Assembly (NCBI GenBank): GCA_015206945.1
Contig: JADEXV010000006.1
Coordinates: forward strand, 1-64,000
Direction: 5' to 3'
Source: Nostocales cyanobacterium LEGE 12452
GTDB taxonomy: Bacteria > Cyanobacteriota > Cyanobacteriia > Cyanobacteriales > Nostocaceae
DNA: 64,000 nucleotides
The notes under the pieces were generated by a model, which searched no databases, had not been told where the DNA came from, and saw only the letters and a program-made list of their open reading frames with translations. Positions within the stretch are counted from its first letter, which is position 1, and every line of letters begins with the position of its first letter. Both the position numbers and the translations under genes were made by a program. Below are positions 48,789 to 62,610 of the stretch, piece by piece.

Positions 48789-50291
48789 TTATAAATCACT
48801 AATCAACCTCGCCTTACGGAGGAAGAATTGCAGCACAGTTTCTTCACGGGAAATAATATCAACTCTACCCTCCATACCCAATTGAATATGACACTGGTTT
48901 TTCCCTTTACCTAAAACCAAAGTTTCCGGTTCAATTGTGACTTCATAAAAAGCACCAGGCGCAGTAGCTTTTGGGCTAGTAGTCCCATTCATCGATGCAT
49001 TTGTGCCATTCTTTTGAGGAGAGATTGCATCTGGAGAAATCGTCTGCACTTGACCATTCAGAGTACCATAATCTGGGTAAGGACAAGCGCTGACCCGCAT
49101 TTGGACTTTTTGACCAATTTTTAACTTACTTTGATCTTCAGATGCCACCGCAGCTTTCAAAACTTGAGGCGCATCAGAGGGGACAATTTGCAATACTTCC
49201 TCGCCAGCACGTACAGTTTGACCTGGGTTTCGCAGATTGAGTTGGGAAATGATACCATCAGCGGTAGCTGCGATCGCAGTTTGAGCTAAATCTATTTTGG
49301 CTTGTTTGAGTTCGCTAGTATCACGCTCTAACTGCTTTTCAATTTCAATCCGTTGCTTAACTAAGGCTTGGCGTTCCTTTTCTAATGTTGCTTTGTTGCT
49401 TTCCCCTCCGGCTTTTTCTTGAGCGATTCGCTCAGTAGCAATAGTTACTGCTGCATTACTTGGATTGACGGCAACTTGGGCGCGTTGTCTTCTGGCAATC
49501 ACAGCAGATACCGCTTGTTGTAACCGTTGAATTGTCTGTTTTTGCGCCTCCACTGCTGCTTGTTGCGCCTTTACCGCTTGCTCTTGCTGTCTGGCAGATA
49601 ATTGTGCTTCTTCCAATTGATCCTGAGATAGCGCCCCTTGGTTGGCTACACTCTCATATCGCTTCTGTTTTGACTGGGCTACACCCAAAGCAGCTTCAGC
49701 AGCATGGAGATTTGCCTGTGTTGTTTTTAACTGTGCTACCCCAGCCAGCAATTCTTTTTCAGCAATTTTGACGTTGGCATCAGCTTCTTGGAGTTCGGAA
49801 ACGGTGGTCAGATTTTTATCTTGATATTCCCGACGGCGACCGCTCAATTCCGCTTCGGCGCCAGTAATAATCCGGTTAAGGCGGTCAGTTTCGGCTTGAA
49901 TCTGGCTATTAAGGGAACTAATCTGGGCATTGATTTGCACTAGTTGTAACTGAGATTGTTGAATACTAGTTTGCAATAGACTTTTTTTGGTTTGCAGACG
50001 GGAGTCATCGATAGTTGCGATCGCATCTCCTTTTTTGATAAGTTGATTCTCTTTGACATAAATGTGCATAACCTGACCTTCAGTCGCCGCTTGCACAATT
50101 CGCAATTCACCCGCCGGACGCACAACCGCCTGTGCTTGGACTGTAACCTTATACTTACAAATTGCAGCAAGTGGCCCAGCTAATCCGAGAACGCAGAGAA
50201 TAAACATTCCGCCCCATGTTGTCCAACGAGTAATTGGTGGGAGAAATTCGTTTGTTTGAATTGGGGGGAGAAAATTTGTGTTGCTAACCAT
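48789..50291 (-). CDS. HlyD-family secretion adaptor
   Basis: A 500-residue type I secretion membrane-fusion protein. One transmembrane helix (TWGGMFILCVLGLAGPLAAI) is followed by a lipoyl half-domain (VRPAGELRIVQAATEGQV), a long coiled coil (residues 90-330), the second lipoyl half and a beta-barrel. It lies downstream of the C39-peptidase ABC exporter on the same strand, separated by a repeat-filled gap of 235 bases, and is the probable adaptor of that exporter. Confidence 0.9.
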   Translation of the reverse strand: MVSNTNFLPPIQTNEFLPPITRWTTWGGMFILCVLGLAGPLAAICKYKVTVQAQAVVRPAGELRIVQAATEGQVMHIYVKENQLIKKGDAIATIDDSRLQTKKSLLQTSIQQSQLQLVQINAQISSLNSQIQAETDRLNRIITGAEAELSGRRREYQDKNLTTVSELQEADANVKIAEKELLAGVAQLKTTQANLHAAEAALGVAQSKQKRYESVANQGALSQDQLEEAQLSARQQEQAVKAQQAAVEAQKQTIQRLQQAVSAVIARRQRAQVAVNPSNAAVTIATERIAQEKAGGESNKATLEKERQALVKQRIEIEKQLERDTSELKQAKIDLAQTAIAATADGIISQLNLRNPGQTVRAGEEVLQIVPSDAPQVLKAAVASEDQSKLKIGQKVQMRVSACPYPDYGTLNGQVQTISPDAISPQKNGTNASMNGTTSPKATAPGAFYEVTIEPETLVLGKGKNQCHIQLGMEGRVDIISREETVLQFFLRKARLISDL

Positions 50292-50526: not shown

Positions 50527-52746
50527 TTAATTAATAGTGGCAGTCTTACCGTTATGATGAGCCGGGGAAGATATCAGCGCCAACCCATTATGAGAGGGAA
50601 AAATATCATCTAAGAAATCTAAATGTTCGCCAGGTAAAGAGCGCAATTCTTCTGGTGTACCTTGGATTTTTAAGCGTCCTTGTTCTAAAAATACAATTAA
50701 ATCTGCCCTCTGTATCACCTTGGGACGGTGACTAATTAAAATAGTCGTTTGATTGTGACGATGGGATAAAAGTCTATCTAATACTTGTCTTTCGCTTACT
50801 GGGTCGAGTGCGCCCGTGGATTCATCTAAAATTAACACTGGTGGCTGAGTAACTATGGCTCTGGCTATGGCTAATCTTTGGCGTTGTCCACCAGAAAGAT
50901 TTGCCCCAAATTCTCCTAAAACAGTTTGATATTTATCAGGGAGTTTGCTAATAAATTCATCTGCACCTGCAATTTGACAAGCTTTGACAATTTCTTCAAA
51001 ACTAATATGGGGATAGCTAAAGTTGAAGTTATCAATAATTGAACGACTCCAAAAGTGGGGTTCTTGAGGAACTAATACCACTTGTTGACGCAAACATTCT
51101 AAGGATAAATCTTGCTGATTATATAAACCATAACGAATATTTCCAGACTCGACTTTATATAAACCAGTCAGCAATTTTGCCAGGGTACTTTTACCACAAC
51201 CAGATTTGCCAATTAAAGCAATAACTTTACCGCCAGGAATAGTTAAGGAAAAATCTTGTAGGAGGTCAACTCTACCTGCGTGATGAAAGTTCAATTCAGT
51301 GCAAGTTATATCTGCATTTCCAGGAATTTGTGCCCAAGGCTTTTTAAAATCATTTTCGGACTCTGGGGTAGCGTCAATAACTTCTGTCATCCGTTGAAGG
51401 ACTATCTGGGCAGTGATAAACTCATCTACTAAGCCAATGGCAGCACCTAAGAATCCGAGAAAGTTGCCACTCATGCCGTTATATGCCATTAATTGACCGA
51501 TTGTTAAGGTGCGATTAATGACTAAATAGCTACCCATCCAAAGGATGCCAATACTAATGAAAGTGGAAAGAATACCAGTAACTGTACTGCTATACAGTCC
51601 CAGTTTCATCATACTCCAGCCCAAATTGGCAAGATGACCATAATTCCCTTGGTATTCTGACCAAGCTTGGGGAGTGGCTTGGGTAGTTTTTAATACTTGG
51701 ATGCCGCGAAATGTTTCTACCAAAAAGCCTTGGTTTTCTGTACCAGAAATAATCAGATTCCGTGTTTTCTGGCGCATCGCGGGTAAGAAAAGCAGGTTAA
51801 CACCCGTGATAATCATAAATGCAACTATGGAAGCGAGAGTTAGTTCCCAACTGTAAAAGAGCATAAAAGCCAAGGAAATTACAGCAATAAAGAATTGACT
51901 GGGTAATCCGAGGACAATTTGGGAAACTAAGTTATTGATGGCTTTGACATCGGCAATGCGGCTCACAACTTCCCCACTGCGTCGTCCTTCAAAGTAGGAT
52001 AGGGGTAAATGTAAAAGTTTGCGTCCGTATTCTAGGATTAGTCCTAATTGCAATCTTTGACCGAAGTGACCAATGAGGTGAGATTGGACTAAACCAATGG
52101 CGCTTCTAATTAAGTTCATGGCGATAACGCCAATGGCGACGGTGGTTAGTAGTTGGGTATCACCTCGTACTAAGACATCATCGGTGAGGAGTTGCATCAT
52201 GAAGGGAGATGCCAAAGAAAGTAGTCCAATGGCGATGTTAATGGCGATCGCTTGGGCGAGAATAGAACGATAAGGCCAAACCCGTTGCAGATATCTTCCC
52301 AAACCGCCGATTTTATCTGATTCTTGTTGATAAAAACGACTGTCGTCTGGAGTCAGCAGCAGCATGACGCCATTACCCCAACCCGCCATTAACTCTTGAC
52401 GGGTAAGGTAACGGATACCAACACCAGGGTCAGCGATGACGTATTTTTTGCCTTTTTGCCCGTATAATACGACCCAGTGGTAGCCTTTCCAGTGGATAAC
52501 TGCTGGTAAGGGAGCTTGATCTAATTGGTCGAGTAATTGGGGACTGGCTTTAACTTGGCGGGCGTTGAATCCTAGTACTTCTGCACCCCGCTTCAATCCC
52601 AGCAAGGATGTTCCTCTAGAACCAGTACCTACGGCTTCTCGGATGCGGTTGAGGGTAAATGTGCGTCCGTGGTGTTTGGCGATGGTTGCAAGACTCGCAG
52701 CCCCGCAGTCTTCTTCGCTGTGTTGAAGGACTATTTGGTATTTCAT
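50527..52746 (-). CDS. Peptidase-C39 ABC exporter for double-glycine leaders
   Basis: A bifunctional transporter of about 740 residues; ATG 52746 is chosen and a TTG four codons upstream is possible. The N-terminal C39 domain has catalytic Cys14 in HSEEDCGAASL and the His in GYHWVVLYG followed by VIADPGVG. Six transmembrane helices follow, then the ATPase with Walker A IGKSGCGKST, signature LSGGQRQRLAIARA and Walker B LILDEST. It cuts GG leaders and exports the cargo. Four such precursors lie directly upstream. Confidence 0.95.
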   Translation of the reverse strand: MKYQIVLQHSEEDCGAASLATIAKHHGRTFTLNRIREAVGTGSRGTSLLGLKRGAEVLGFNARQVKASPQLLDQLDQAPLPAVIHWKGYHWVVLYGQKGKKYVIADPGVGIRYLTRQELMAGWGNGVMLLLTPDDSRFYQQESDKIGGLGRYLQRVWPYRSILAQAIAINIAIGLLSLASPFMMQLLTDDVLVRGDTQLLTTVAIGVIAMNLIRSAIGLVQSHLIGHFGQRLQLGLILEYGRKLLHLPLSYFEGRRSGEVVSRIADVKAINNLVSQIVLGLPSQFFIAVISLAFMLFYSWELTLASIVAFMIITGVNLLFLPAMRQKTRNLIISGTENQGFLVETFRGIQVLKTTQATPQAWSEYQGNYGHLANLGWSMMKLGLYSSTVTGILSTFISIGILWMGSYLVINRTLTIGQLMAYNGMSGNFLGFLGAAIGLVDEFITAQIVLQRMTEVIDATPESENDFKKPWAQIPGNADITCTELNFHHAGRVDLLQDFSLTIPGGKVIALIGKSGCGKSTLAKLLTGLYKVESGNIRYGLYNQQDLSLECLRQQVVLVPQEPHFWSRSIIDNFNFSYPHISFEEIVKACQIAGADEFISKLPDKYQTVLGEFGANLSGGQRQRLAIARAIVTQPPVLILDESTGALDPVSERQVLDRLLSHRHNQTTILISHRPKVIQRADLIVFLEQGRLKIQGTPEELRSLPGEHLDFLDDIFPSHNGLALISSPAHHNGKTATIN

Positions 52747-52954
52747 TTTCTGCTGCAATTATGGGGAAGAAAATAAAGTCAGGTCATTTGATGCCATTTA
52801 ATTGAGTTATTAACTCTTCGATTTGAACTGAGACAGGATAATGTAAACTCAGAGATTCAAATCCGTAATCAGCCAGTAAGTCTTCTTTACACTTTGTTTC
52901 TGATACTTCCTTAAGTAAACTTCTCTGTTATGACTTTTTACGATGACTTTTAGT

Positions 52955-52965
52955 GTTTATGCACT
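52955..52965 (-). promoter_or_regulatory. AGTGCATAA motif, copy before the exporter gene
   Basis: On the minus strand AGTGCATAAAC lies about 210 bases before the exporter start. It is one of five copies in 2.7 kb, all oriented towards the gene they precede. Confidence 0.5.
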
Positions 52966-53014
52966 GAACAACCGGAAATCCGGGAAAATCTGTAAAATCC
53001 TTATGCAGAAGATA

Positions 53015-53033
53015 TCGGGGCAAAAAGCCCCGA
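53015..53033. terminator. Hairpin, probable terminator of the cargo gene at 53115
   Basis: TCGGGGC-AAAAA-GCCCCGA forms a 7-bp stem about 80 bases past the cargo stop. No T-run follows on the minus strand, so termination is uncertain. Its twin at 54737 has the loop as TTTTT. Confidence 0.45.
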
Positions 53034-53114
53034 CAATGTTTAATGTTCAGCTTGTGAGAACCAAAAGTTTGGCTGTGTGGTTACTGAGGATCTCAAAGTT
53101 CTCAAGAATGCTAT

Positions 53115-53540
53115 TTAGGCAATAACCTTGTAGAGTACATCATAAATAGAGCCACCTTTCGTCACTCTCACTGTTTTTTGACCGGTTCGGGAATCGCCAA
53201 CAGTAAAACCGCCTAGATAGTCATCGGCACTAGAGGAAGAGGGATCGTCATCGAAAAGGTTAACTCTTGCTGTCCCAGTAAAGTTTATTGTTCTGCTGAT
53301 ATTGATGCTTTCGCCAGTATCTACGTCGTTATAAGTTCCCGGAAGTCTTATTCCATTTACTACAATATAGAGATCGTCTCCGTTACCATCCTTCCAGTTG
53401 CCGTCTGCACGTGCTTGGATGGCAGTGGCATTATACAATATGAGCCTAGCACCGCCTTCGATGAAGGCTCCTTCTTCAGGAGTTAATTCTGTAAAAAGTT
53501 GTTCGTCAAAAGTATAAATCGCTGCGTTGATGTTAGACAT
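53115..53540 (-). CDS. Double-glycine-leader C2-like protein A
   Basis: A 141-residue precursor. The leader MSNINAAIYT... ends FTELTPEEGAFIEGG at residue 30, a bacteriocin-type GG cleavage site for the C39 exporter. The mature part of about 111 residues is beta-rich with GDDLYIVVNG, FTGTARVNLFDDD and SADDYLGGF, Asp-rich loops placed as in calcium-binding C2-like domains. The ribosome site is AGGAG, 8 bases before ATG. It shares clear homology with the gene at 54834 and weaker homology with that at 54157. The fold assignment is my inference. Confidence 0.82.
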   Translation of the reverse strand: MSNINAAIYTFDEQLFTELTPEEGAFIEGGARLILYNATAIQARADGNWKDGNGDDLYIVVNGIRLPGTYNDVDTGESINISRTINFTGTARVNLFDDDPSSSSADDYLGGFTVGDSRTGQKTVRVTKGGSIYDVLYKVIA

Positions 53541-53614
53541 TGTTTTTCTCCTGTAATTAAGATGACATCTATTTCAATTAGGTCAATCCGTGCTATGGCT
53601 TGCTATAGAGCAGT

Positions 53615-53839
53615 CTAGTTGTTCAGGCTATTAGAAACGATGGTATTAGGAATACAGCGTAACTGAGGATTAAGAGGTGGTAGCGCTGGTATCCAACCAG
53701 GGGGACAGAGATGAGGAGGCTTAGGAACAATTAATATTTTTTGTGGTGTTGAATGTCCTCCTCCGACACACTCAGCAGTTTGATTGTCCAGTTCTTCAAC
53801 CAAGTTCAAGTCTTCTACTAAGAGGCTTTTGCTTCTCAT
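53615..53839 (-). CDS. Small Pro/Cys double-glycine peptide
   Basis: A 74-residue precursor: leader MRSKSLLVEDLNLVEELDNQ ending TAECVGGG at residue 28, then a core of about 46 residues rich in Pro with two Cys (PHLCPPGWIPALPPLNPQ...RCIP). A GGGAG site lies 9 bases before ATG. It is 74 bases ahead of the C2-like gene A, probably in the same transcript. A disulfide-bonded bacteriocin-like peptide is a possibility. Confidence 0.72.
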   Translation of the reverse strand: MRSKSLLVEDLNLVEELDNQTAECVGGGHSTPQKILIVPKPPHLCPPGWIPALPPLNPQLRCIPNTIVSNSLNN

Positions 53840-53873
53840 TTTTTTAGTCTCCCTTTACTTGAGATTCTGTTTT

Positions 53874-53932
53874 GCGGGTTTGAACCCTTTCAATTTGGTT
53901 ATTGGGGTCGCGTTTGCTGATTTATGCACTTG
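53874..53932 (-). promoter_or_regulatory. Shared upstream module, copy 1
   Basis: Read on the minus strand it opens AAGTGCATAAATCAGCAA, then CCCAATAAC, then TGAAAGGGTTCAAACCC. The same parts occur at 55449-55503 with identical spacing and at 55643-55696 with nearly identical spacing. It ends about 35 bases before the GG peptide gene. Confidence 0.7.
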
Positions 53933-54031
53933 TTCGCCAATAATGCATTCCTGATGTGATACATTATTCTCAATTTTTCTCCTTAATCTTTATAAGGCTT
54001 GCTAGTTAAGGAGGATGAAACGATGACAGGT

Positions 54032-54081
54032 AAAAAAAGAGGCAGTAATTTACCCTAACTTTTGGTAAAAATACTTGCCTC
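54032..54081 (-). terminator. Rho-independent terminator of the cargo gene at 54157
   Basis: On the minus strand GAGGCA...TTTACC pairs with GGTAAA...TGCCTC in an interrupted stem and is followed by seven T residues. It begins about 75 bases past the stop. Confidence 0.8.
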
Positions 54082-54156
54082 AATTAGCAATTAAATTCAA
54101 ACATATACTACCCATGACTTGGAGTTTGGGCAGTGATTACGCCACTTCTAGCCCAT

Positions 54157-54528
54157 TTAGGCGACGCTGTATGTTAGTGCGTAACCACCTGCCTCAAACC
54201 TTCCATTGTCTATTTTGTTTTCTGGGTTAATTGTTATCTCACCTAGTAGGTCATCTCCCGCTAGTCCCGCAGGAGCATCCCAGTCGAAAAGCCTGAGAGG
54301 TGTTGGGCTATCAAATAATACATCCTTTTCAATCGTGGCAAAATCTCCCGCTAACATGTTCGATTTCAAGTACATAGGTGTACCGCCGAATCGGACGCGG
54401 GGATCGTTCTGCGCTGTAGGATTTATAGCGTCAATGGAATGTAATGTAAATATAGCTCCTCCCTCTATGATCGCTGCTTCTTGGGGAGTTAATTCAGTCA
54501 ACAGTTGTTCTAGTTGATTGTTTTTCAT
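54157..54528 (-). CDS. Double-glycine-leader C2-like protein C
   Basis: A 123-residue precursor. The leader QLLTELTPQEAAIIEGG ends at residue 24. The mature part of 99 residues resembles the other two cargoes in layout: TPMYLKSNM, then PLRLFDWDAPAGL and GDDLLGEITI, with Asp-rich loops as in C2-like folds. Identity to A and B is clearly lower, so this is an older duplicate. The ribosome site is weaker (AAGGAAAG 10 bases away). Confidence 0.8.
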   Translation of the reverse strand: MKNNQLEQLLTELTPQEAAIIEGGAIFTLHSIDAINPTAQNDPRVRFGGTPMYLKSNMLAGDFATIEKDVLFDSPTPLRLFDWDAPAGLAGDDLLGEITINPENKIDNGRFEAGGYALTYSVA

Positions 54529-54570
54529 CTTCTTTACTTTCCTTAAAATGTGTGTGCATACAAAATCGGT

Positions 54571-54654
54571 GATTTGGAGTTAGGATAGGCAATGACTCTG
54601 CTTCAAGTCATAAATCAGCTTTAGCGATCGCTTGAGCGAGAATAGAGCAATAAA
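54571..54654. repeat. Chimeric duplicated block joined at HIP1
   Basis: Bases 54571-54631 repeat 55315-55375 almost exactly and end at GCGATCGC. The DNA after that octamer (54624-54654) instead matches 52244-52274 inside the exporter gene at 27 of 30 positions. The junction between the two sources is the HIP1 octamer shared by both. Confidence 0.75.
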
Positions 54655-54676
54655 TCTCTTTAGGATGACTTTTAGT

Positions 54677-54687
54677 GCTTATGCACT
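54677..54687 (-). promoter_or_regulatory. AGTGCATAA motif, copy before cargo gene C
   Basis: On the minus strand AGTGCATAAGC lies about 150 bases before the gene at 54528. It sits in the duplicated 3' flank of cargo B. Confidence 0.5.
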
Positions 54688-54736
54688 GAAGAACCGAAAA
54701 TTCGGGCAAAAATCTGTAAAATTTTGATGCAGGAAA

Positions 54737-54759
54737 TGTCGGGGCTTTTTGCCCCGACA
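54737..54759. terminator. Hairpin, probable terminator of cargo gene B
   Basis: TGTCGGGGC-TTTTT-GCCCCGACA is a perfect 9-bp stem about 75 bases past the stop of the gene at 54834. The loop is the reverse complement of that at 53022-53026. Confidence 0.5.
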
Positions 54760-54833
54760 ATGTTTAATGTTCAGCTTGTGAGAACTAAGAGTTTGGCTGT
54801 GTAGTTACTGAGTAACTCAAGGTTCTGAGAAGT

Positions 54834-55250
54834 TTAGACAGCAGTAACTTTGTAGTACACTTCATACGTGGAGCCACTTCCGCTGATTATTGCTGATTTT
54901 ATACCTGTGGGATTGCTTCCAACAATAAAACCGCCTAGAGGGTCATCGGACAATACGTCGGCATCAAAAAAACGAATCGATGCAGTCCCGCTGAACTGAT
55001 AAGATTTGCCGATGCTAAATGTATCCCCTGTTTTTACATTGTTGTTAGTTCCGTAAATTTTGTTGCCGTTGCATTTAATATAGACGTCGTCTCCGTTAAT
55101 ACCTGGGAAGACGTCTGCACTTGCTCTGATGGCAGTAGCTCTTATCAATCTGAGAGTAGCACCGCCTTCGATGACAGCTCCTTCTTCAGGAGTTAATTCG
55201 CTAAAAAGTAGTTCGTCAGAAGTATAAATTGCTGTGTCGATGTTAGACAT
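54834..55250 (-). CDS. Double-glycine-leader C2-like protein B
   Basis: A 138-residue precursor, close paralogue of protein A. The leader ends FSELTPEEGAVIEGG at residue 30. The mature part of 108 residues has GDDVYIKCNGNKIYG, FSGTASIRFFDAD and SDDPLGGFIVG, ending YEVYYKVTAV. The AGGAG site and the ATG context match gene A base for base. The conserved Asp-rich loops suggest calcium binding. It is exported by the C39 transporter, by inference from the leader and the gene order. Confidence 0.82.
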   Translation of the reverse strand: MSNIDTAIYTSDELLFSELTPEEGAVIEGGATLRLIRATAIRASADVFPGINGDDVYIKCNGNKIYGTNNNVKTGDTFSIGKSYQFSGTASIRFFDADVLSDDPLGGFIVGSNPTGIKSAIISGSGSTYEVYYKVTAV

Positions 55251-55314
55251 TGTTTTTCTCCTTTAGTTAAGATGACATCAATAGCCTTCGATTCGGTCAA
55301 TCGTAGCTATCGAT

Positions 55315-55375
55315 GATTTGGAGTTAGGATAGGCAATGACTCTGCTTCAAGTCAGAAATCAGCTTTGGCGATCGC
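55315..55375. repeat. Duplicated 61-bp block, source copy
   Basis: The block starts GATTTGGAGTTAGGATAGG and ends at GCGATCGC. It is nearly identical to 54571-54631 and lies just upstream of cargo gene B. Confidence 0.8.
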
Positions 55376-55448
55376 CTCCATAAAGCCAAAAGCCATAAGA
55401 CTGTAGTTAACAACATTGGACTCAGAGCCTTTGTCATTCCTCGTCGGG

Positions 55449-55503
55449 GTTTTAACCCTTTCATCAGAGTCAATGGGATGGTCTTGATTGATTTATGCAC
55501 TTG
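55449..55503 (-). promoter_or_regulatory. Shared upstream module, copy 2
   Basis: On the minus strand: CAAGTGCATAAATCAATCAA, CCCATTGAC, TGAAAGGGTTAAAACCC. The blocks keep exactly the spacing of copy 1. It lies about 200 bases before cargo gene B. Confidence 0.7.
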
Positions 55504-55642
55504 ACCTATGCAAAAATTGTTATTTTGACCCATCAAATTAGCTGCAATCATTACCCTAATTAACTTCTAGCTATTATTTGTTTAAGCAATAAAACTTCAT
55601 AAAATTGCTTTTTGCTTGTTTACTCTGCCTGTAATTAAAGAT

Positions 55643-55696
55643 AAGTGCATAAACCAGCAAGTAGCATCCCAATAACTAGATAAAGGGATTCAACTC
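55643..55696 (+). promoter_or_regulatory. Shared upstream module, copy 3 (sigma-like operon)
   Basis: On the plus strand AAGTGCATAAACCAGCAAGT, then CCCAATAAC, then AAAGGGATTCAACTC. From AAGTGCATAA to GTTATTG on the opposite strand the spacing equals copy 1; the last block is 2 bases closer. It is about 330 bases before the sigma-like gene. The rest of 55504-56024 shows no gene. Confidence 0.65.
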
Positions 55697-56024
55697 AATG
55701 TATTGGCTTCATTGTCAATTTGTAAAATCTCTATTAGCAAAAACAACCTAAAAGCTAGAATGAGCAAAAGAGTTTAGTGGCTATTGCCATATAACAGAGA
55801 AAGTTATCGTTTGTTTGAGAAAAATAAAACTGAAGAATCAGATCGAGTTCTTTTAAACCTGGATCTGTAAAACTGGTTACTCGCTATCAATCAGCAAGCC
55901 ACGAAGCACAGCATTTTCTAAATCCGTGACGAATTGAGTGAGCTACTAGCTAGACCCAGAGACACTCAATAACGCTACGAACTTGTGAAATACTGTACTA
56001 AGATTGAGCGGGCAATTATTGAAA

Positions 56025-57821
56025 ATGAGCGATCAATTCTGGACTTTATACGACTTCACTGAAACTAGCGGTCATCCTCCCTTCAAACGGCTAATTCAAA
56101 ATCGCTTGCGGGAGAGAATCCAAAAGCTGGTTCAGTTGCATCCCGAATGGGATGATAATGACTACGCGAATTATTTTATAGAAATTCTCAATGAAGATTC
56201 CCAAGCTGAAACACAAAAGCGCTTGGCTCACTGGCATTTATTATCTTACTTTGATCGCGATCGCTGTTATCTAATTTGGAGAAGTTGGTGCCGTCTGCCT
56301 TTCTACGCTGCTTATGCAGAAAATTTGTATGCTTTGACTAACGAACACCTCTGTAACCGGGAGAAATTGCAGCAATATCTTAATAAGTACGAAGCTAATC
56401 GCGAGAATAAAGCAAATCTCAAAACCTATATGGTAGGGGTGTTGCGAAATGTGATGCGACACCATGTAAATTGGGAATCGAGATGGCATCTGCTGTGTGA
56501 TGTGGAAATTAATAGTAGTAGAAAACTTCAAAAGGCGGAAGAACGACTCAGAGAAGCACTAAAAAACTCTGGCTCAAAAGAACCAGAAATTTCTCAGTAT
56601 CTTTTCGCTTGGCGATATTTTGTACCTGTTTACAAAAACAATCGAGTCTACCATCCCAACAGAAGAGAAGGGGATAAATGGCCAGAGCCGGAATTCTCAG
56701 ATTTTGCAGAAACATCTAAGGACTACAACTCTCAGAGATTTCAACCCGGTGCTCCCCTGCAAGCAGCCGTCGGTGCAGCAGTAGCGCCTGCAATGATTCA
56801 ACAATGGATGAAAATCTGTATTGATGCCTTACAACAATCTTCTCAAATTATTGAAGTATCTTATGATGCCACTAGTATCGAACAGCCGGATCATGAGAGC
56901 CGCAACTCTTGGGAAGCATTAGAGAAAGAGGAAGAGTCAGCAGAATCTTTACAAGAAATAGACTTGATTTTAAGAGAGGAAATTGAGCAAATTGAGCAAA
57001 ATCTAGACAGTATCCGCAGCCAAATTCCCAAATCTTGCCGCCAGGCTGTGATGCCTCTGTGCTATCCTCATCGATTAGCGCTTTTAACCCAAGAACAGTT
57101 GAGCAGCAAGATTGGCGTTCATCAGGGAACCATTTCGCGCTACATCTCCAAGAATGTGGAAGCGCCATTGCTAGAAAAGTTTCAGAAGTTAACAAGTGAG
57201 CAATTCAATCCTACAGCTTATGCTAAAACATTTTTAAATGAGAAATTTACCAATTTTAACTCGGCTCATCCCGTTGAAGCGAAATTATTTGCTGCGATCG
57301 CAGATTTAGATCCCCAGTCTCAGCAAATTCTCAAACTTAGCTACGGTCAAAAAATGAATATCATCGAGCTAACCCAGGCTCTTACTCAGGAAAAACCTAT
57401 TAGCCAAGAGGAAGTGAAACAAAAACTGAGTGCAGCGCAAAATCAATTACAAACAAGTTTTTTAAACTTATTTAACCAATGGCAAAGCAATTATGTCAAG
57501 TTATGGTTAAAAAACTATTACCAAAATCTTATTCAATCAGGTTTATTAAAGTCATTTGAGCAATTAGGGTCGCTGCAACGAGAAATTTTGTGGCTACGAT
57601 ACGGTCAAAAGCAAGACATAAAAAATATTGAAACCCTCAAACCTAACTTTAATGTCTGTCAAACGCTGGCTTTAGCCAAGCAGCAGTTGCAGCGTTCTTT
57701 TCTTTGGTGGATTGACAGCCGTTTTGGTCTTTCCCTAGAGACAGAAACTCAACAAATTGGGGAAATCATTGAAGATTGGTTGTTAACCAACTTACTCTAC
57801 CAAGAAATCGAGAGAAATTAA
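56025..57821 (+). CDS. Sigma-70-like regulatory protein
   Basis: ATG 56025 is preferred to TTG 56004. The 598-residue protein has an N-terminal sigma-2-like part with LKTYMVGVLRNVMRHHV, and a C-terminal half with sigma-4-like helices repeated: LTQEQLSSKIGVHQGTISRYI (about 350-370), LDPQSQQILKLSYGQK and LQREILWLRYGQK. It is much larger than ECF sigma factors. It is followed 9 bases later by DUF1822, then CHAT-CHASE2 and DUF928, a set that I recognise as recurring in cyanobacteria. It may direct RNA polymerase to a special regulon. Confidence 0.8.
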   Translation: MSDQFWTLYDFTETSGHPPFKRLIQNRLRERIQKLVQLHPEWDDNDYANYFIEILNEDSQAETQKRLAHWHLLSYFDRDRCYLIWRSWCRLPFYAAYAENLYALTNEHLCNREKLQQYLNKYEANRENKANLKTYMVGVLRNVMRHHVNWESRWHLLCDVEINSSRKLQKAEERLREALKNSGSKEPEISQYLFAWRYFVPVYKNNRVYHPNRREGDKWPEPEFSDFAETSKDYNSQRFQPGAPLQAAVGAAVAPAMIQQWMKICIDALQQSSQIIEVSYDATSIEQPDHESRNSWEALEKEEESAESLQEIDLILREEIEQIEQNLDSIRSQIPKSCRQAVMPLCYPHRLALLTQEQLSSKIGVHQGTISRYISKNVEAPLLEKFQKLTSEQFNPTAYAKTFLNEKFTNFNSAHPVEAKLFAAIADLDPQSQQILKLSYGQKMNIIELTQALTQEKPISQEEVKQKLSAAQNQLQTSFLNLFNQWQSNYVKLWLKNYYQNLIQSGLLKSFEQLGSLQREILWLRYGQKQDIKNIETLKPNFNVCQTLALAKQQLQRSFLWWIDSRFGLSLETETQQIGEIIEDWLLTNLLYQEIERN

Positions 57822-57830
57822 GGACTGAAA

Positions 57831-59276
57831 ATGCTGAAATTGCGAAAACTTTCTACTATTTATCCTAACCAGCTCTGGTTGAGGTTATCACAAGAGCTTC
57901 AAGAAGAAGCTTGGCAGCAATCCCAAGCTCATGGCAATGCCGCATCTCGCTGTCAAGCTTACCTAAATTATCTCTGCTTAAAAACTTTTGTTCCCTGGAT
58001 TGAGGCTTGGTTAGCAGAAGCCAATCAAGACAAAGATAGGATTTCTGACACCACTTGCGATTCCCTCTGGGAATTTGTCAACGGTACGCCAATTGAGTTA
58101 GAAGGAATCCGATTAGTATTGATACCCAGCGAAACCAGCGATTTAGAGGAATTTGCTGTTCCCTGCGAGTGGGTTGATATTCCTAGCTGGAGAAAAGATT
58201 ATTATGTCGCCGTCCAAATTAATTTAGGTGAGTCAGAGCAATCTTGGCTGCGGGTGTGGGGATACGCTACCTATGAAAAACTCAAGAGCCGGGGGATATA
58301 TGATGAAAGCGATCGCACTTACTATATTAATCAGGAAGTCTTGGCTGAAGACCTCACACAAATGCTACTCGTATTGCAGCCAGATTCCAGTCCCCAAGCA
58401 GCAGCACCTCAGCCACAGTTATCTGCACAACTAGCTCAGGATTTGTTAATACAACTAAGTAATCCTTCAATATATTCCCCTAGATTGACAGTGCCTTTTG
58501 AACAATGGGCAGCATTATTAGTAGACGAGCAGTGGCGGCAAGAACTATACAAAGAGCGGTTGCGGTTAGCTGTGACTTCAACACCAAATTTAGCAGTAGT
58601 GAACTTGCGGCAGTGGTTACAGCAGACTCAGACCATAATTGAGGAAATTTGGCAAGCTGTTGAAACACTCTTAACGCCTCTAGAATTCAGTGCAGTTCGC
58701 GGTATAGAAAATCCGCAAGAGACAGTTTCATCTGAAGCGATCGCACCAGTGATTCGCCTGCTGCAATCAGATCGCCCTGAAAAGGAGCGCTGTCAAGCAG
58801 CCGGGGTTTTAGGACAAATTGGGCTTGGACATCCAGAAGCTATTGAGGCTTTAACCCAATTGTTACGCACTGCGAACGATGAGGAAACCCGTTGGGAAGC
58901 AGCCTTAAGTTTAGGTAAAATTGCTCCCAATCATCCCCAAGCGGGTGTTAGTAAAGCTAGGTTAATTGACTTGGGGATGCAGTTAGCAGGTTGCCAAGTA
59001 GCGCTAATTGTGATCATTAGACCCAAAATAGAGGAGAAAATTGGGGTGCGATTGCAAGTGCAGCCAATCAGCCAGCAGCATAAACTTCCACCCCATCTAA
59101 CACTTAGTGTGATTGCTGATGGAGAAACTCACTTACAAGCCCAAACAAGAAGCGACGAGCAAGGTGAGGGGAAAGATAAAATCCTCCAGTTGGGCTTTAG
59201 TCCGCCACCCGGAACCCAATTCCAAGTGCGGGTGACGCTGGATGGGATATGTGTGAGTGAGGATTTTGTTGCTTAA
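57831..59276 (+). CDS. DUF1822 protein with HEAT-like repeats
   Basis: The 481-residue protein opens with the DUF1822 family region (WQQSQAHGNAASRCQAYLNYLCL). The segment at about 300-385 has two HEAT-like repeats (RCQAAGVLGQIGLGHPEAIEAL; TRWEAALSLGKIAPNHP). The C-terminus is a beta domain of unknown type. No enzyme motif is visible. HEAT repeats suggest it binds other proteins, probably the neighbours. Confidence 0.82.
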   Translation: MLKLRKLSTIYPNQLWLRLSQELQEEAWQQSQAHGNAASRCQAYLNYLCLKTFVPWIEAWLAEANQDKDRISDTTCDSLWEFVNGTPIELEGIRLVLIPSETSDLEEFAVPCEWVDIPSWRKDYYVAVQINLGESEQSWLRVWGYATYEKLKSRGIYDESDRTYYINQEVLAEDLTQMLLVLQPDSSPQAAAPQPQLSAQLAQDLLIQLSNPSIYSPRLTVPFEQWAALLVDEQWRQELYKERLRLAVTSTPNLAVVNLRQWLQQTQTIIEEIWQAVETLLTPLEFSAVRGIENPQETVSSEAIAPVIRLLQSDRPEKERCQAAGVLGQIGLGHPEAIEALTQLLRTANDEETRWEAALSLGKIAPNHPQAGVSKARLIDLGMQLAGCQVALIVIIRPKIEEKIGVRLQVQPISQQHKLPPHLTLSVIADGETHLQAQTRSDEQGEGKDKILQLGFSPPPGTQFQVRVTLDGICVSEDFVA

Positions 59277-59393: not shown

Positions 59394-61712
59394 ATGAGCA
59401 GGGTAGCAATTCTTAAAATCGGCAGGGGGGACTTTCACCAAGGGTTTGAAGTATCGCTAGAACTTAGAGAAGATGGCGGTTCTCCTGTGGGGGAAATTGA
59501 AGGTAGGCTAAGAGCTAACACAGAGATTGAAGGATTGTATTTTTTGTGGCAACAATCTTTTCGCAATCTTACTGCGATCGCTCGAAATCATGGTTGGGAG
59601 ATTGAGGAAAGCTTACCAACAAATCGCGCCACTAGCGAGATTGCAGCCGACTGTTGGCAACGGATGCAACAAGTGGAGGCTAACCTGAACCAATGGCTGC
59701 AACCATCGGGGGAACTGGGCTGGCAAAAAATTCGAGAAAGGTTAAGCAAAGAGCTAGCCAGTCAGCCTGACACCATGCGGTTAGGCATCAAAGCTAAAGA
59801 GCCAATCCTGTGGAAACTACCTTGGCATACCTGGGATTTGCTGTCGAGTTACCCAAATGTCGGTGTGAGCTACAGTCCGGTAGAATACGAATCTTGGGGA
59901 ATTGCCAAATATCAAACTCAAAGCGATCGCGTCCGGCTGCTGGCGATTTTTGGAGATAACCGCCACCTGGATCTAGAAGGCGATCGCGAGGCAATCAAAA
60001 GTTTAGAAGCAACATCAGTTTTTTGCCATCAGCCTCAAGCTAGAGATTTAATTGCTCAACTCCGAGAGCCAAAGGGCTGGGATATCTTCTTTTTTGCTGG
60101 GCATAGCCAGACGATACAACAAAGGGGCCGAATTAGTCTCAGCGCCAGGGAAAGTATTGAAACTGACCAATTTAAACATGCCTTAAGGGAAGCGATTCAA
60201 CGCGGATTAAGAATTGCCATTTTTAATTCTTGCGAAGGATTGGGACTAGCGCAGCAGTTAGCTGATTTACACGTCCCAATTATTATCGTTATGCAGGAGA
60301 TAGTCCCCGATTTAGTTGCCCAATCGTTTCTCAAAGAATTTCTGAGAGAATATGCAGCCGGACAACCTTTATACACTGCCGTGCGCCATGCCCAAGAACG
60401 ACTAGAGGAATTTACTGATTTACCAGGCGCTACCTGGTTACCCATGATTTACCACAATCCCTCTGAAGTGCCGCCAACTTGGAAAGATTTGCAGCCGGTA
60501 GCAAAGGGCAATTCCCACCGTCGGCTTGACTGGCAGCATTTGCCAGATATCTTCATTAAGAGTTTGGTAGCTACTGGGTTAGTGATGGCGGTGCGGTTTT
60601 TAGGCGGACTCCAGCCAATGGAAGTGTGGGCTTTTGACCAGATGACGCGGCTGCAACCCGATCGAGGAATTGACGAGCGTCTCCTGGTTGTAAAAGTAAC
60701 CGAAGAAGATATCCGAGAGCAGCGTCAGTATCCCCTCAGCGATCGCGTAATTTTACAGACCATACAGAAACTACAGGTTCATCAACCCAGAGCCATTGGC
60801 TTGGATATCTACCGCGATTTGCCAGTGGAACCCGGATACAGTCAGCTAGCCGCGCACCTTAAGGAGAACCCGCGCCTTGTGACTATCTGCGAAGTCAGCC
60901 AATCCGAAGCTAAAGGTAAGGGTAAATTTGGAGTTGCTTCTCCTCCTGCTAGCCCACCAGAAAATACTGGCTTTAGCGATTTGGTAGTTGATTCTGACGG
61001 TATAGTTCGCCGTTATTTGTTTCATTTGAATTCAGGAGACTCCCTTTGCCAAGCCTCCTATGCTTTCAGTGCCCAATTGGCTTTTCGTTATCTAGATGCA
61101 GAGGGTATCCAGCCAGAAGCAACATCTGAAGGATACTTGCAACTTGGCTCTACCGTCTTTCAGCCTTTGGAAAAGCATACTGGTTTTTATCACAACATCG
61201 ACCCTCGCGGTCATCAAGTCCTGCTCAGTTACCGCTCCTCACAACAAGTCGCTAGGGAAGTAACGCTGGCAGAAGTTCTCAAAAATGATTTTCAGCCGGA
61301 GTGGGTTAAAGATCGTATTGTTTTGATCGGCGTTACGGCCTCATCGGTTGGCGATCGTTTTTCCACTCCCTTTAACCAAAGAATGCCAGGCATCGTCATT
61401 CATGCCCAAATGGCAAGTCAAATCCTCAGCGTAGCGCAACAAAAACGTCCCTTGCTGCGATTTTGGCCCCAGGAATTAGATACTCTTTGGATATGGAGTT
61501 GGTCATTTGCGGGGGGTTTATGCGTTTGGGGGTTTGACTCGCTTCTATATCGGAGAATAGCGATCGCCACAGTCATCACGATCCTTCCTAGCCTTTGCTT
61601 TGGCTTGTTCGCGATCGGCATGTGTGCCCCACTGGTTCCATCAGCACTCGCGTTAGCGATTGCCTGGATCGTAACAACCCATCTGAAGCACCGCAACAGT
61701 AATCAAGTGTAG
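59394..61712 (+). CDS. CHAT protease fused to CHASE2 sensor
   Basis: The 772-residue protein begins with an N-terminal domain and a CHAT (caspase-like) domain at about 175-350; the dyad is intact: His237 in FFFAGHSQ and Cys280 in IFNSCEGLG. A first membrane helix near 388-405 leads to an extracytoplasmic CHASE2 domain (residues 410-690, with DQMTRLQPDRG...AIGLDIYRDLP) and three C-terminal helices. Usually CHASE2 is followed by a kinase or cyclase; here nothing follows. It probably senses an outside signal and activates a protease. Confidence 0.88.
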   Translation: MSRVAILKIGRGDFHQGFEVSLELREDGGSPVGEIEGRLRANTEIEGLYFLWQQSFRNLTAIARNHGWEIEESLPTNRATSEIAADCWQRMQQVEANLNQWLQPSGELGWQKIRERLSKELASQPDTMRLGIKAKEPILWKLPWHTWDLLSSYPNVGVSYSPVEYESWGIAKYQTQSDRVRLLAIFGDNRHLDLEGDREAIKSLEATSVFCHQPQARDLIAQLREPKGWDIFFFAGHSQTIQQRGRISLSARESIETDQFKHALREAIQRGLRIAIFNSCEGLGLAQQLADLHVPIIIVMQEIVPDLVAQSFLKEFLREYAAGQPLYTAVRHAQERLEEFTDLPGATWLPMIYHNPSEVPPTWKDLQPVAKGNSHRRLDWQHLPDIFIKSLVATGLVMAVRFLGGLQPMEVWAFDQMTRLQPDRGIDERLLVVKVTEEDIREQRQYPLSDRVILQTIQKLQVHQPRAIGLDIYRDLPVEPGYSQLAAHLKENPRLVTICEVSQSEAKGKGKFGVASPPASPPENTGFSDLVVDSDGIVRRYLFHLNSGDSLCQASYAFSAQLAFRYLDAEGIQPEATSEGYLQLGSTVFQPLEKHTGFYHNIDPRGHQVLLSYRSSQQVAREVTLAEVLKNDFQPEWVKDRIVLIGVTASSVGDRFSTPFNQRMPGIVIHAQMASQILSVAQQKRPLLRFWPQELDTLWIWSWSFAGGLCVWGFDSLLYRRIAIATVITILPSLCFGLFAIGMCAPLVPSALALAIAWIVTTHLKHRNSNQV

Positions 61713-61722
61713 GAGGGAGATT

Positions 61723-62610
61723 ATGACTAGGATCAAGTTTTTTCACTGGAAGATAGGGCTGGCTTTGGCTTTAATTGCTTTTGCTGCTAGCACAGGAAAA
61801 GCTCATCCTTTTCAAGATCGCCAAACACTCGTTGCAGATGTACGTCCCGCGACTTCATCTTCTTTTAACCAAAATTCTTCAAAGCAGTCCCAGCCTAAGC
61901 CCCCAACCGCTTCCCCAGTGCAGTATAATCAACCGCCACTTTCACCGCGAGGAGCGCCAGGAAACAGAAAAGGCGGCGGAACTCGTGATGGGCATAGTTG
62001 CCCAACGCTGGAAATGAAAGAGCGTCTTATGGCTTTAGTTCCCGCTTTGGAATCAGAGCAACCAGTCAGCCATGTTTGGGGGTTGACCGTTGAAGCCTCT
62101 CCTACACTCTGGTTTTATGTTCCTTATCTTCCCAAAGATATCAAGGTGGGCGAATTGGAATTATGGGACGAAACTGATCGAGAACCCAGAAATTATCAGC
62201 AAATTTACCAAGGAACTTTTACTGTCACTGGAACGCCAGGAGCGATCGCTCTGAGTCTACCACCGACAGTTAAATTAGAGCCAGATAAAAACTATCATTG
62301 GTATTTATCGCTCAACATCAATTGCAATAGTGAAAATGAATCAGTGGATGTTAACGGGTGGATTCAAAGAGTCAAATTGAACAACACCACTTCATCTCAG
62401 CAGCAGTCAGCCGAGCGAGAGCGAGTTATTTTCTATGCCAAAAATGGCATTTGGTACGACGCTTTAACTCTATTAGGGCAACTGCGCCGTCGCCATCCAG
62501 AAACAGAAATTTTGTTAGCTGATTGGCAAAAATTGCTAAGGGATGCTGGCTTAGAAGAGTTTGCCAACAAACCTATTACTCCTTGCTGTACACTTTCACC
62601 CTCACCCTAA
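61723..62610 (+). CDS. DUF928 exported protein
   Basis: The 295-residue protein has a signal peptide (FHWKIGLALALIAFAASTGKA) and the DUF928 core: RGAPGNRKGGGTRDG near residues 81-95, LMALVP, TVEASPTLWFYVPY, and LELWDETDR. AGGAGG lies 8 bases before ATG. It starts 10 bases after CHAT-CHASE2 and so shares its transcript. It is probably periplasmic. The function is unknown; the pairing with CHASE2 suggests a ligand or partner outside the membrane. Confidence 0.85.
   Translation: MTRIKFFHWKIGLALALIAFAASTGKAHPFQDRQTLVADVRPATSSSFNQNSSKQSQPKPPTASPVQYNQPPLSPRGAPGNRKGGGTRDGHSCPTLEMKERLMALVPALESEQPVSHVWGLTVEASPTLWFYVPYLPKDIKVGELELWDETDREPRNYQQIYQGTFTVTGTPGAIALSLPPTVKLEPDKNYHWYLSLNINCNSENESVDVNGWIQRVKLNNTTSSQQQSAERERVIFYAKNGIWYDALTLLGQLRRRHPETEILLADWQKLLRDAGLEEFANKPITPCCTLSPSP

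Follow-up and report, generated by a model that had tools for sequence, protein, structure and literature searches.

Two related promoter-like elements at sigma-factor and peptide-export loci of Nostocales cyanobacterium LEGE 12452 and its relatives

The 64,000-nt stretch analysed here (hereafter the window; positions 1 to 64,000 of contig JADEXV010000006.1 of Nostocales cyanobacterium LEGE 12452) is part of contig C181 of an 8.38 Mb genome. It contains a locus in which a peptidase C39-containing ABC exporter (PCAT), its HlyD partner and four small genes with GG-type leaders lie next to a divergent four-gene run encoding, in this order, a sigma-like protein, a DUF1822 protein, a CHAT-CHASE2 protein and a DUF928 protein (Table 1). 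The C39 peptidase ABC exporter and HlyD were recognized by Pfam and the GG leaders were read directly in the sequence; the closest named relatives of the sigma-like gene are from Nostoc, Calothrix and Tolypothrix. An initial annotation had described one motif, AGTGCATAA, repeated five times here and always pointing at the next gene, as a promoter or operator. Five exact copies are present, with coordinates corrected by one to two bases, and each is directed at the following gene (distances in Table 1, counted from the first base of the module to the ATG). The window holds no further copy, and at least five copies occurred in none of 100 shuffles (shuffle mean 0.75).

The expectation that AGTGCATAA would be concentrated at this locus failed, with 60 copies genome-wide and 27 of the reversed control word, which rules out the bare 9-mer as the signal. 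Differing flanks and second halves likewise rule out a single element: the copies at 53931, 55502 and 55643 belong to one type (module 1) and those at 52965 and 54687 to another (module 2), so that AGTGCATAA is, judged by sequence, the common half of two longer candidate elements. Within module 1, the ungapped match proposed for the copies at 53920 and 55491 was correct, GAAAGGGTT included, as was the placement of CCCAATAAC at the same distance in the copy at 55643. The long pattern of module 1, derived from the same three window sites, is AAGTGCATAAAYCA-N11-CCCAWTRAC, followed slightly further on by GAAAGGG or AAAGGG; allowing up to three mismatches, it was found three times in the genome, always at this locus (control, 0). 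The core, TGCATAAA-14 bp-CCCAATAA, gave as a 30-base pattern with up to two mismatches 19 matches in the genome (three at the locus; reversed control, 3). Of the 16 elsewhere, 11 are within open reading frames (ORFs) of at least 90 aa and five outside such ORFs, and a wider module-1 regulon was not found in this genome by this core scan.

Searching the genome together with 58 relatives, we found ten matches to the long pattern in seven genomes (control, 0), comprising three in the window, three near a homologue of the sigma-like gene (two in G005, one in G013) and four in genomes without a match to the sigma-like protein. The shorter core yielded 84 listed matches in 58 of 217 same-family genomes. 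With three seed genomes excluded, 21 of 78 core matches had a strong long-sigma gene (the type encoded in the window, see below) no more than 12 kb away, against 0.06 expected under uniform placement on 7.6 Mb genomes. A weight matrix built from six sites in the three seed genomes was run on the regions upstream of non-seed sigma genes, where 34 of 59 scored at least 13; among control ORFs at the same loci, 13 of 376 reached that score. Seven controls scored at least 22; five of these precede exporters (three in seed loci L041 and L042), and the other two a TPS exoprotein (L139) and a 159-aa ORF (L172). A 14-bp gap between TGCATAAA and CCCAATAA occurred in 37 of 62 sigma-upstream windows, that of the present locus included, and every other gap from 5 to 25 bp in 0-4; the 376 control windows had the 14-bp gap in 10 and other gaps in 0-12 each. 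(The 62 sigma entries include a fragment, L160, and an interrupted gene, L149, that counts as two entries.) Module 1, for which this two-part test was computed and which is found upstream of the long sigma's own gene, is thus a two-part site with a preferred fixed spacing. Outside the Nostoc-Calothrix group, as judged by name, a core site also precedes sigma-like genes in Xenococcaceae metagenome-assembled genomes (L172, L174), Argonema (L176) and Kamptonema (L188, L197), and none was seen upstream of the sigma-like gene in L171, L181 and L191. At 21 loci with other or short sigma paralogues (L013-L033) the best matrix scores were 4.5-14.6. An exact core match in G171 (L088) lies inside a 2,290-aa ORF and was taken as chance. 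Several strong long-sigma paralogues can coexist in one genome, five in G218 (L098, L129-L132) and four in G121 (L150-L153), with module 1 diverged or undetected.

Besides the sigma genes, module 1 precedes mersacidin/lichenicidin-type precursors and LanM genes accompanied by PCAT and HlyD (LanM checked in L080, L081 and L092, precursors in L080 and L084; L090, L091 and L095 were assigned by ORF size, N-terminus and position), a radical SAM protein (L079), GG cargo (L085, L089), an HlyD-PCAT pair that faces away from an NHLP precursor (L041) and a cNMP-type PCAT (L041, L094). It is also found 550-680 nt before NPXG/TPS-domain exoproteins (L093, L139) and before small secreted-looking proteins (L079 8893-10024, L090 9333-9884, L095 8757-9308; 125 and about 183 aa), for which no Pfam or NCBIfam match was obtained with L079 8893-9270 and an L091 homologue, and no Pfam match with L079 9470-10024. 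Certain distances from module 1 to the start codon recur: 129-132 nt at several sigma genes, and 83-97 nt where the gene encodes a GG or small secreted-looking product.

The sigma-like genes beside the modules fall into two types. In a family profile search, 46 strong long-sigma genes (E <=1.1e-166) in 35 genomes stood apart from a shorter family, whose E values began at 7.5e-48, with three matches in between (E 1e-75 to 1e-86); a search of genome contigs with the sigma-like protein alone found no relative. Searches and modelling of the window protein began one codon after ATG 56025, and the 597-residue model (mean predicted local distance difference test score, pLDDT, 82.8) has a sigma2-like N-terminal part followed by sigma4-like helix-turn-helix domains at about residues 350-390 and about 412-485. 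The protein matched Sigma70_r4 in Pfam (3e-7) and TIGR02937 (44.6 bits; cutoff, 42.9); region 4 was matched twice, at profile positions 334-390 (SigF) and 421-480 (FliA), and residues 412-485 superposed on the -35-binding domain of SigL with Z 9.7 and a root-mean-square deviation of 2.6 over 70 residues. Region 2 had no Pfam match. Folded alone, the N-terminal 272 residues gave mainly sigma factors as the best structural matches (top Z 7.1): of the 24 rows with Z >=5, 22 were sigma subunits judged by their titles and the other two ISWI-type proteins, covering residues from about 147 on. The short sigmas are about 390-400 aa long, and the family-profile match ends at position 404-405 of 545 in the three checked; they contain one region 4, with Sigma70_r4 above cutoff and no Pfam region-2 match in the four checked. 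Both types sit in operons with DUF1822, CHAT-CHASE2 and DUF928 proteins, and the two site types go with them, module 1 with the long type and module 2 mostly with the short paralogue.

Module 2, with the consensus AGTGCATAANNACTAAAAGTCRTC, gave 46 matches in 26 of the 217 genomes, compared with five for the reversed control. We examined 33 regions holding 41 of these sites, the other five being in the window and L089. A short sigma-like gene was present in 21 regions, with the adjacent module pointing away from the sigma gene and toward cargo or exporter; nine regions without one contained cargo, exporter, LanM, TPS/TPR-CHAT or parts of the sigma-gene triad, and three (L232, L234, L256) contained none of the relevant genes. 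As read from N-termini and homologies, the next ORF, mostly 110-350 nt away, was a GG-leader cargo, a DIIRAWKD-type precursor or a PCAT for 34 of the 46 sites and something else for 12. At L240, L243, L247 and L250 module 2 precedes cargo without a triad or exporter in the stretch covered, as would be expected of a trans-acting regulon, and contig C27 of the present genome (L207) carries the same kind of cargo with module 2 in diverged form. The two window copies have alike flanks upstream of two different genes. Terminator-like stems (CGGGGC-loop-GCCCCG) at 53005-53040 and 54740-54765 lie directly upstream of each window copy, behind the preceding cargo gene. Several leaders (L231, L239, L260 and others), though not all, carry downstream of module 2 an inverted repeat with TTCACCT...AGGTGAA-like arms, which may form an RNA hairpin.

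The promoter-or-operator claim of the initial annotation thus stands in part. Conserved cis-regulatory DNA is strongly supported, because the long module 1 is confined to this locus in the genome, recurs by homologous sigma-like genes and exporters and keeps a preferred fixed spacing; the five copies are to be divided into two signals that go with two sigma types. On balance, we lean toward a promoter reading, in which two related alternative sigma factors use modules 1 and 2 either as complete promoters or as the promoter segments that the sigma contacts, and the sigma-like genes beside the modules probably encode the readers of those modules. The modules are conserved, oriented and linked to sigma type and to export genes, with the spacing of module 1 as described; for start sites, sigma binding, the roles of the boxes and sensing by CHAT-CHASE2 and DUF1822 we infer the following scheme. 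AGTGCATAA would act as a -35-like element read by the sigma4 domain common to both types, and sigma2 would read a -10-like element, namely CCCAATAAC in module 1 (GCATAA-17 bp-CAATAA) and the ATCGTAAAG region in module 2. The CHAT-CHASE2 and DUF1822 products could respond to a signal by freeing or activating the sigma factor, whereupon the long sigma would switch on its own operon, cargo and exporter, and the short sigma cargo and exporter. In this genome, the long sigma might drive itself, the GG peptide and one cargo, and the short sigma encoded on contig C85 might drive the exporter and a second cargo in trans.

Several observations weigh against this reading. Many of the 84 core matches must be chance, since the reversed core gave 37 by hand count. 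Matrix scores were below 10 in the 900 nt upstream of 24 of the 62 long-sigma genes, and in L041, L042, L090-L092 and L143 the module sits ahead of a different same-strand gene, farther upstream. G175 (L089) has a module-1 promoter before its GG peptide, at the identical 92-nt distance, and no strong long-sigma gene, its triad being of the short-sigma type only. In 19 aligned upstream regions of short sigma genes module 2 occurs only reversed (strict core in 12) and no sense-direction element was identified, so that autoregulation of the short sigma is not supported. The offset of the second half of module 2 is not exactly that of module 1, and to our knowledge neither second half matches a sigma -10 element. 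The N-terminal structural matches, with Z below 8, are graded weak by the comparison tool, and Foldseek gave no match at E <=0.001 for the full and N-terminal models, from which no conclusion was drawn.

Part of this evidence would suit an unlinked activator or repressor, with the modules as its operators and the sigma-like genes as its targets or neighbours: AGTGCATAA, common to both modules, holds much of the information, and L089 and the sigma genes of both types that have no good site nearby in the sense direction are in line with it. We nevertheless consider this unlikely, because across genomes the sites track sigma-like genes, the two site types match the two sigma types, and unlike half-sites with a preferred 14-bp gap suit a promoter more than a binding site for a dimer; no other recurring regulator gene was noticed at these loci, for which no systematic search was made. 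Housekeeping (SigA) promoters with an activator site, in which one box would be that site and the real -10 would lie between box 2 and the ATG, appear improbable. At GG and small secreted-looking genes, box 1 and the ATG are just 83-97 nt apart, which leaves about 50 nt for a weak -10, but the alignment of 51 module-1 sites has no further strongly conserved downstream block beyond the GAAAGGG region.

Transcribed leader RNA structures or attenuators are a very improbable explanation. Hairpin folding is possible in some leaders that follow module 2, and GGGTTNNAACCC in two window copies of module 1 is a palindrome, yet Rfam gave no match in window positions 52500-56200, the eight of 47 module-2 leaders that were folded have no one hairpin in common, and the palindrome is degraded in other module-1 copies. 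That the copies are residues of gene duplication or of a repeat family is hardly credible. The copies at 52957 and 54679 have similar flanks, including the terminator-like stem, and were at first suspected to be duplication debris, a reading given up because other genomes also have this element ahead of genes for cargo and exporters; moreover, core and spacing recur by sigma proteins about 30% or less identical to that of the window and in other named cyanobacterial groups, and the sites keep their orientation toward the next gene.

On sequence comparison, the window appears to be a hybrid: its sigma is of the long type and module 1 is present, whereas its exporter and module 2 are of the kind usual at short-sigma loci. 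At the DNA level, the exporter genes of the window share 94.5-96.6% identity with their counterparts at short-sigma loci L238, L241, L242, L246 and L255, but 64-81% with those at long-sigma loci L085 and L095. Among the loci compared, module 2 (up to four mismatches) was found in the window, in L089 and on contigs C85 and C27 of the same genome, and at no other long-sigma locus. The genome's own short-sigma triad lies on C85 (L260) with one cargo and module 2, and no exporter was found in the stretch covered. From the exporter similarity pattern we infer that a module-2-controlled exporter was joined to a long-sigma locus, so that a single export machine may be under the control of two sigma systems. 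Tentatively, and with less confidence than even, a caspase-like, CHASE2-sensing module could control bacteriocin-type peptides through a dedicated sigma factor, with two sigma lineages that have the -35 code in common but differ in the -10 and, in the long lineage, a second region 4; the window would then be a natural rewiring in which one exporter serves two signalling systems. On C85, a 101-bp relic (L260 9923-10023) matches a section of the window's HlyD gene at 92% identity.

Autoregulated ECF (group 4) sigma factors such as SigW and SigE recognize two-box sites with the boxes GAAC and CGTC. The present systems likewise have region 4 and fixed-spacing two-box sites before the sigma's own operon (for the long type) and before targets; unlike SigW and SigE, the long type has two region-4 domains, different boxes and DUF1822, CHAT-CHASE2 and DUF928 partners. 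Alternative sigma control in Nostoc reportedly includes SigJ/SigF promoters of hormogonium development, with a different sigma type and site. Also related are EACC2-caspase proteins, some with CHASE2, which in the part of Kaur et al. 2021 (PMC8195603) consulted are placed beside an ECF sigma and DUF1822. There, sigma, DUF1822 and caspase-type/CHASE2 genes stand side by side as here, the neighbourhoods were predicted from gene order and the sigma was proposed to regulate many genes; that part does not name target genes or sites, whereas the present proposal comprises a peptide-export regulon and two site types for two sigma types, and the caspase-type protein of the window is known by its Pfam CHAT match. 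Cyanobacterial bacteriocin clusters with PCAT-HlyD exporters were surveyed by Wang et al. 2011 (PMC3140520), with PCAT exporters and leader-bearing precursors as here in the part consulted; its main text has no occurrence, as word starts, of sigma, promoter, DUF1822, CHASE2 or CHAT. In the partly covered open-licence PubMed Central (PMC) literature, including PMC8195603, PMC11119718, PMC3501461 and PMC3140520, no description of module 1 or 2 sites was found. Caspase/ECF-sigma/DUF1822 neighbourhoods were thus already known in 2021, and the two site types and their putative link to peptide export are apparently new. The sites offer concrete, testable targets for those neighbourhoods, in how lanthipeptide, NHLP-type and GG-leader peptides are made and exported, and the modules a DNA signature for locating unlinked cargo genes; this may be a case of two sigma factors with half a promoter code in common.

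Table 1. Candidate elements and genes of the locus (window coordinates; distances run from module to start codon).
Feature	Position	Strand	Evidence or detail
AGTGCATAA copies	52957-52965, 53922-53930, 54679-54687, 55493-55501	-	exact word search
AGTGCATAA copy	55644-55652	+	exact word search
Module 2 before PCAT-HlyD exporter: AGTGCATAAACACTAAAAGTCATC	52942..52965	-	219 nt to PCAT ATG; similar flanks about 52895-53035
Module 1 before GG peptide: AAGTGCATAAATCA-N11-CCCAATAAC, then GAAAGGGTTCAAACCC	53874..53931	-	92 nt to ATG at 53839
Module 2 before cargo 54157-54528	54664..54687	-	159 nt to ATG
Module 1 before cargo 54834-55250	55445..55502	-	252 nt to ATG
Module 1 before sigma-like operon	55643..55700	+	382 nt to ATG at 56025
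HlyD-type membrane fusion protein	48789..50291	-	PF13437 3.3e-18
Peptidase C39-containing ABC exporter (PCAT)	50527..52746	-	PF03412, PF00664, PF00005
Cargo, GG leader (LTPEEGAFIEGG)	53115..53540	-	blastp: 54% identical to 54834-55250 cargo; no match in Pfam and NCBIfam scans
74-aa GG peptide (AECVGGG)	53615..53839	-	ORF; L089 homologue 82% identical
Cargo, GG leader (LTPQEAAIIEGG)	54157..54528	-	ORF; 52% identical homologue behind module 1 in L085
Cargo, GG leader (LTPEEGAVIEGG)	54834..55250	-	ORF; blastp
Putative long sigma-70-family protein, 598 aa from ATG 56025	56025..57821	+	profile matches and structural model
DUF1822 protein	57831..59276	+	PF08852 1.8e-80
CHAT (caspase-like)-CHASE2 protein	59394..61712	+	PF05226 7.1e-68, PF12770 1.2e-9; CHAT at residues 197-337
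DUF928 protein, directly after CHAT-CHASE2 gene	61723..62610	+	PF06051 4e-51

The CHAT-CHASE2 protein of the window has GHS near residue 236 and NSC near residue 278, which we take to be the catalytic dyad of these proteins; both motifs are kept in all six CHAT-CHASE2 partners examined, covering both sigma types. General domain scans of the sigma-operon proteins matched no anti-sigma family, and PADLOC gave no match for the three of these proteins checked. The exporter matched two Mads-protein models and one candidate model in PADLOC, which we read as general ABC ATPase likeness.

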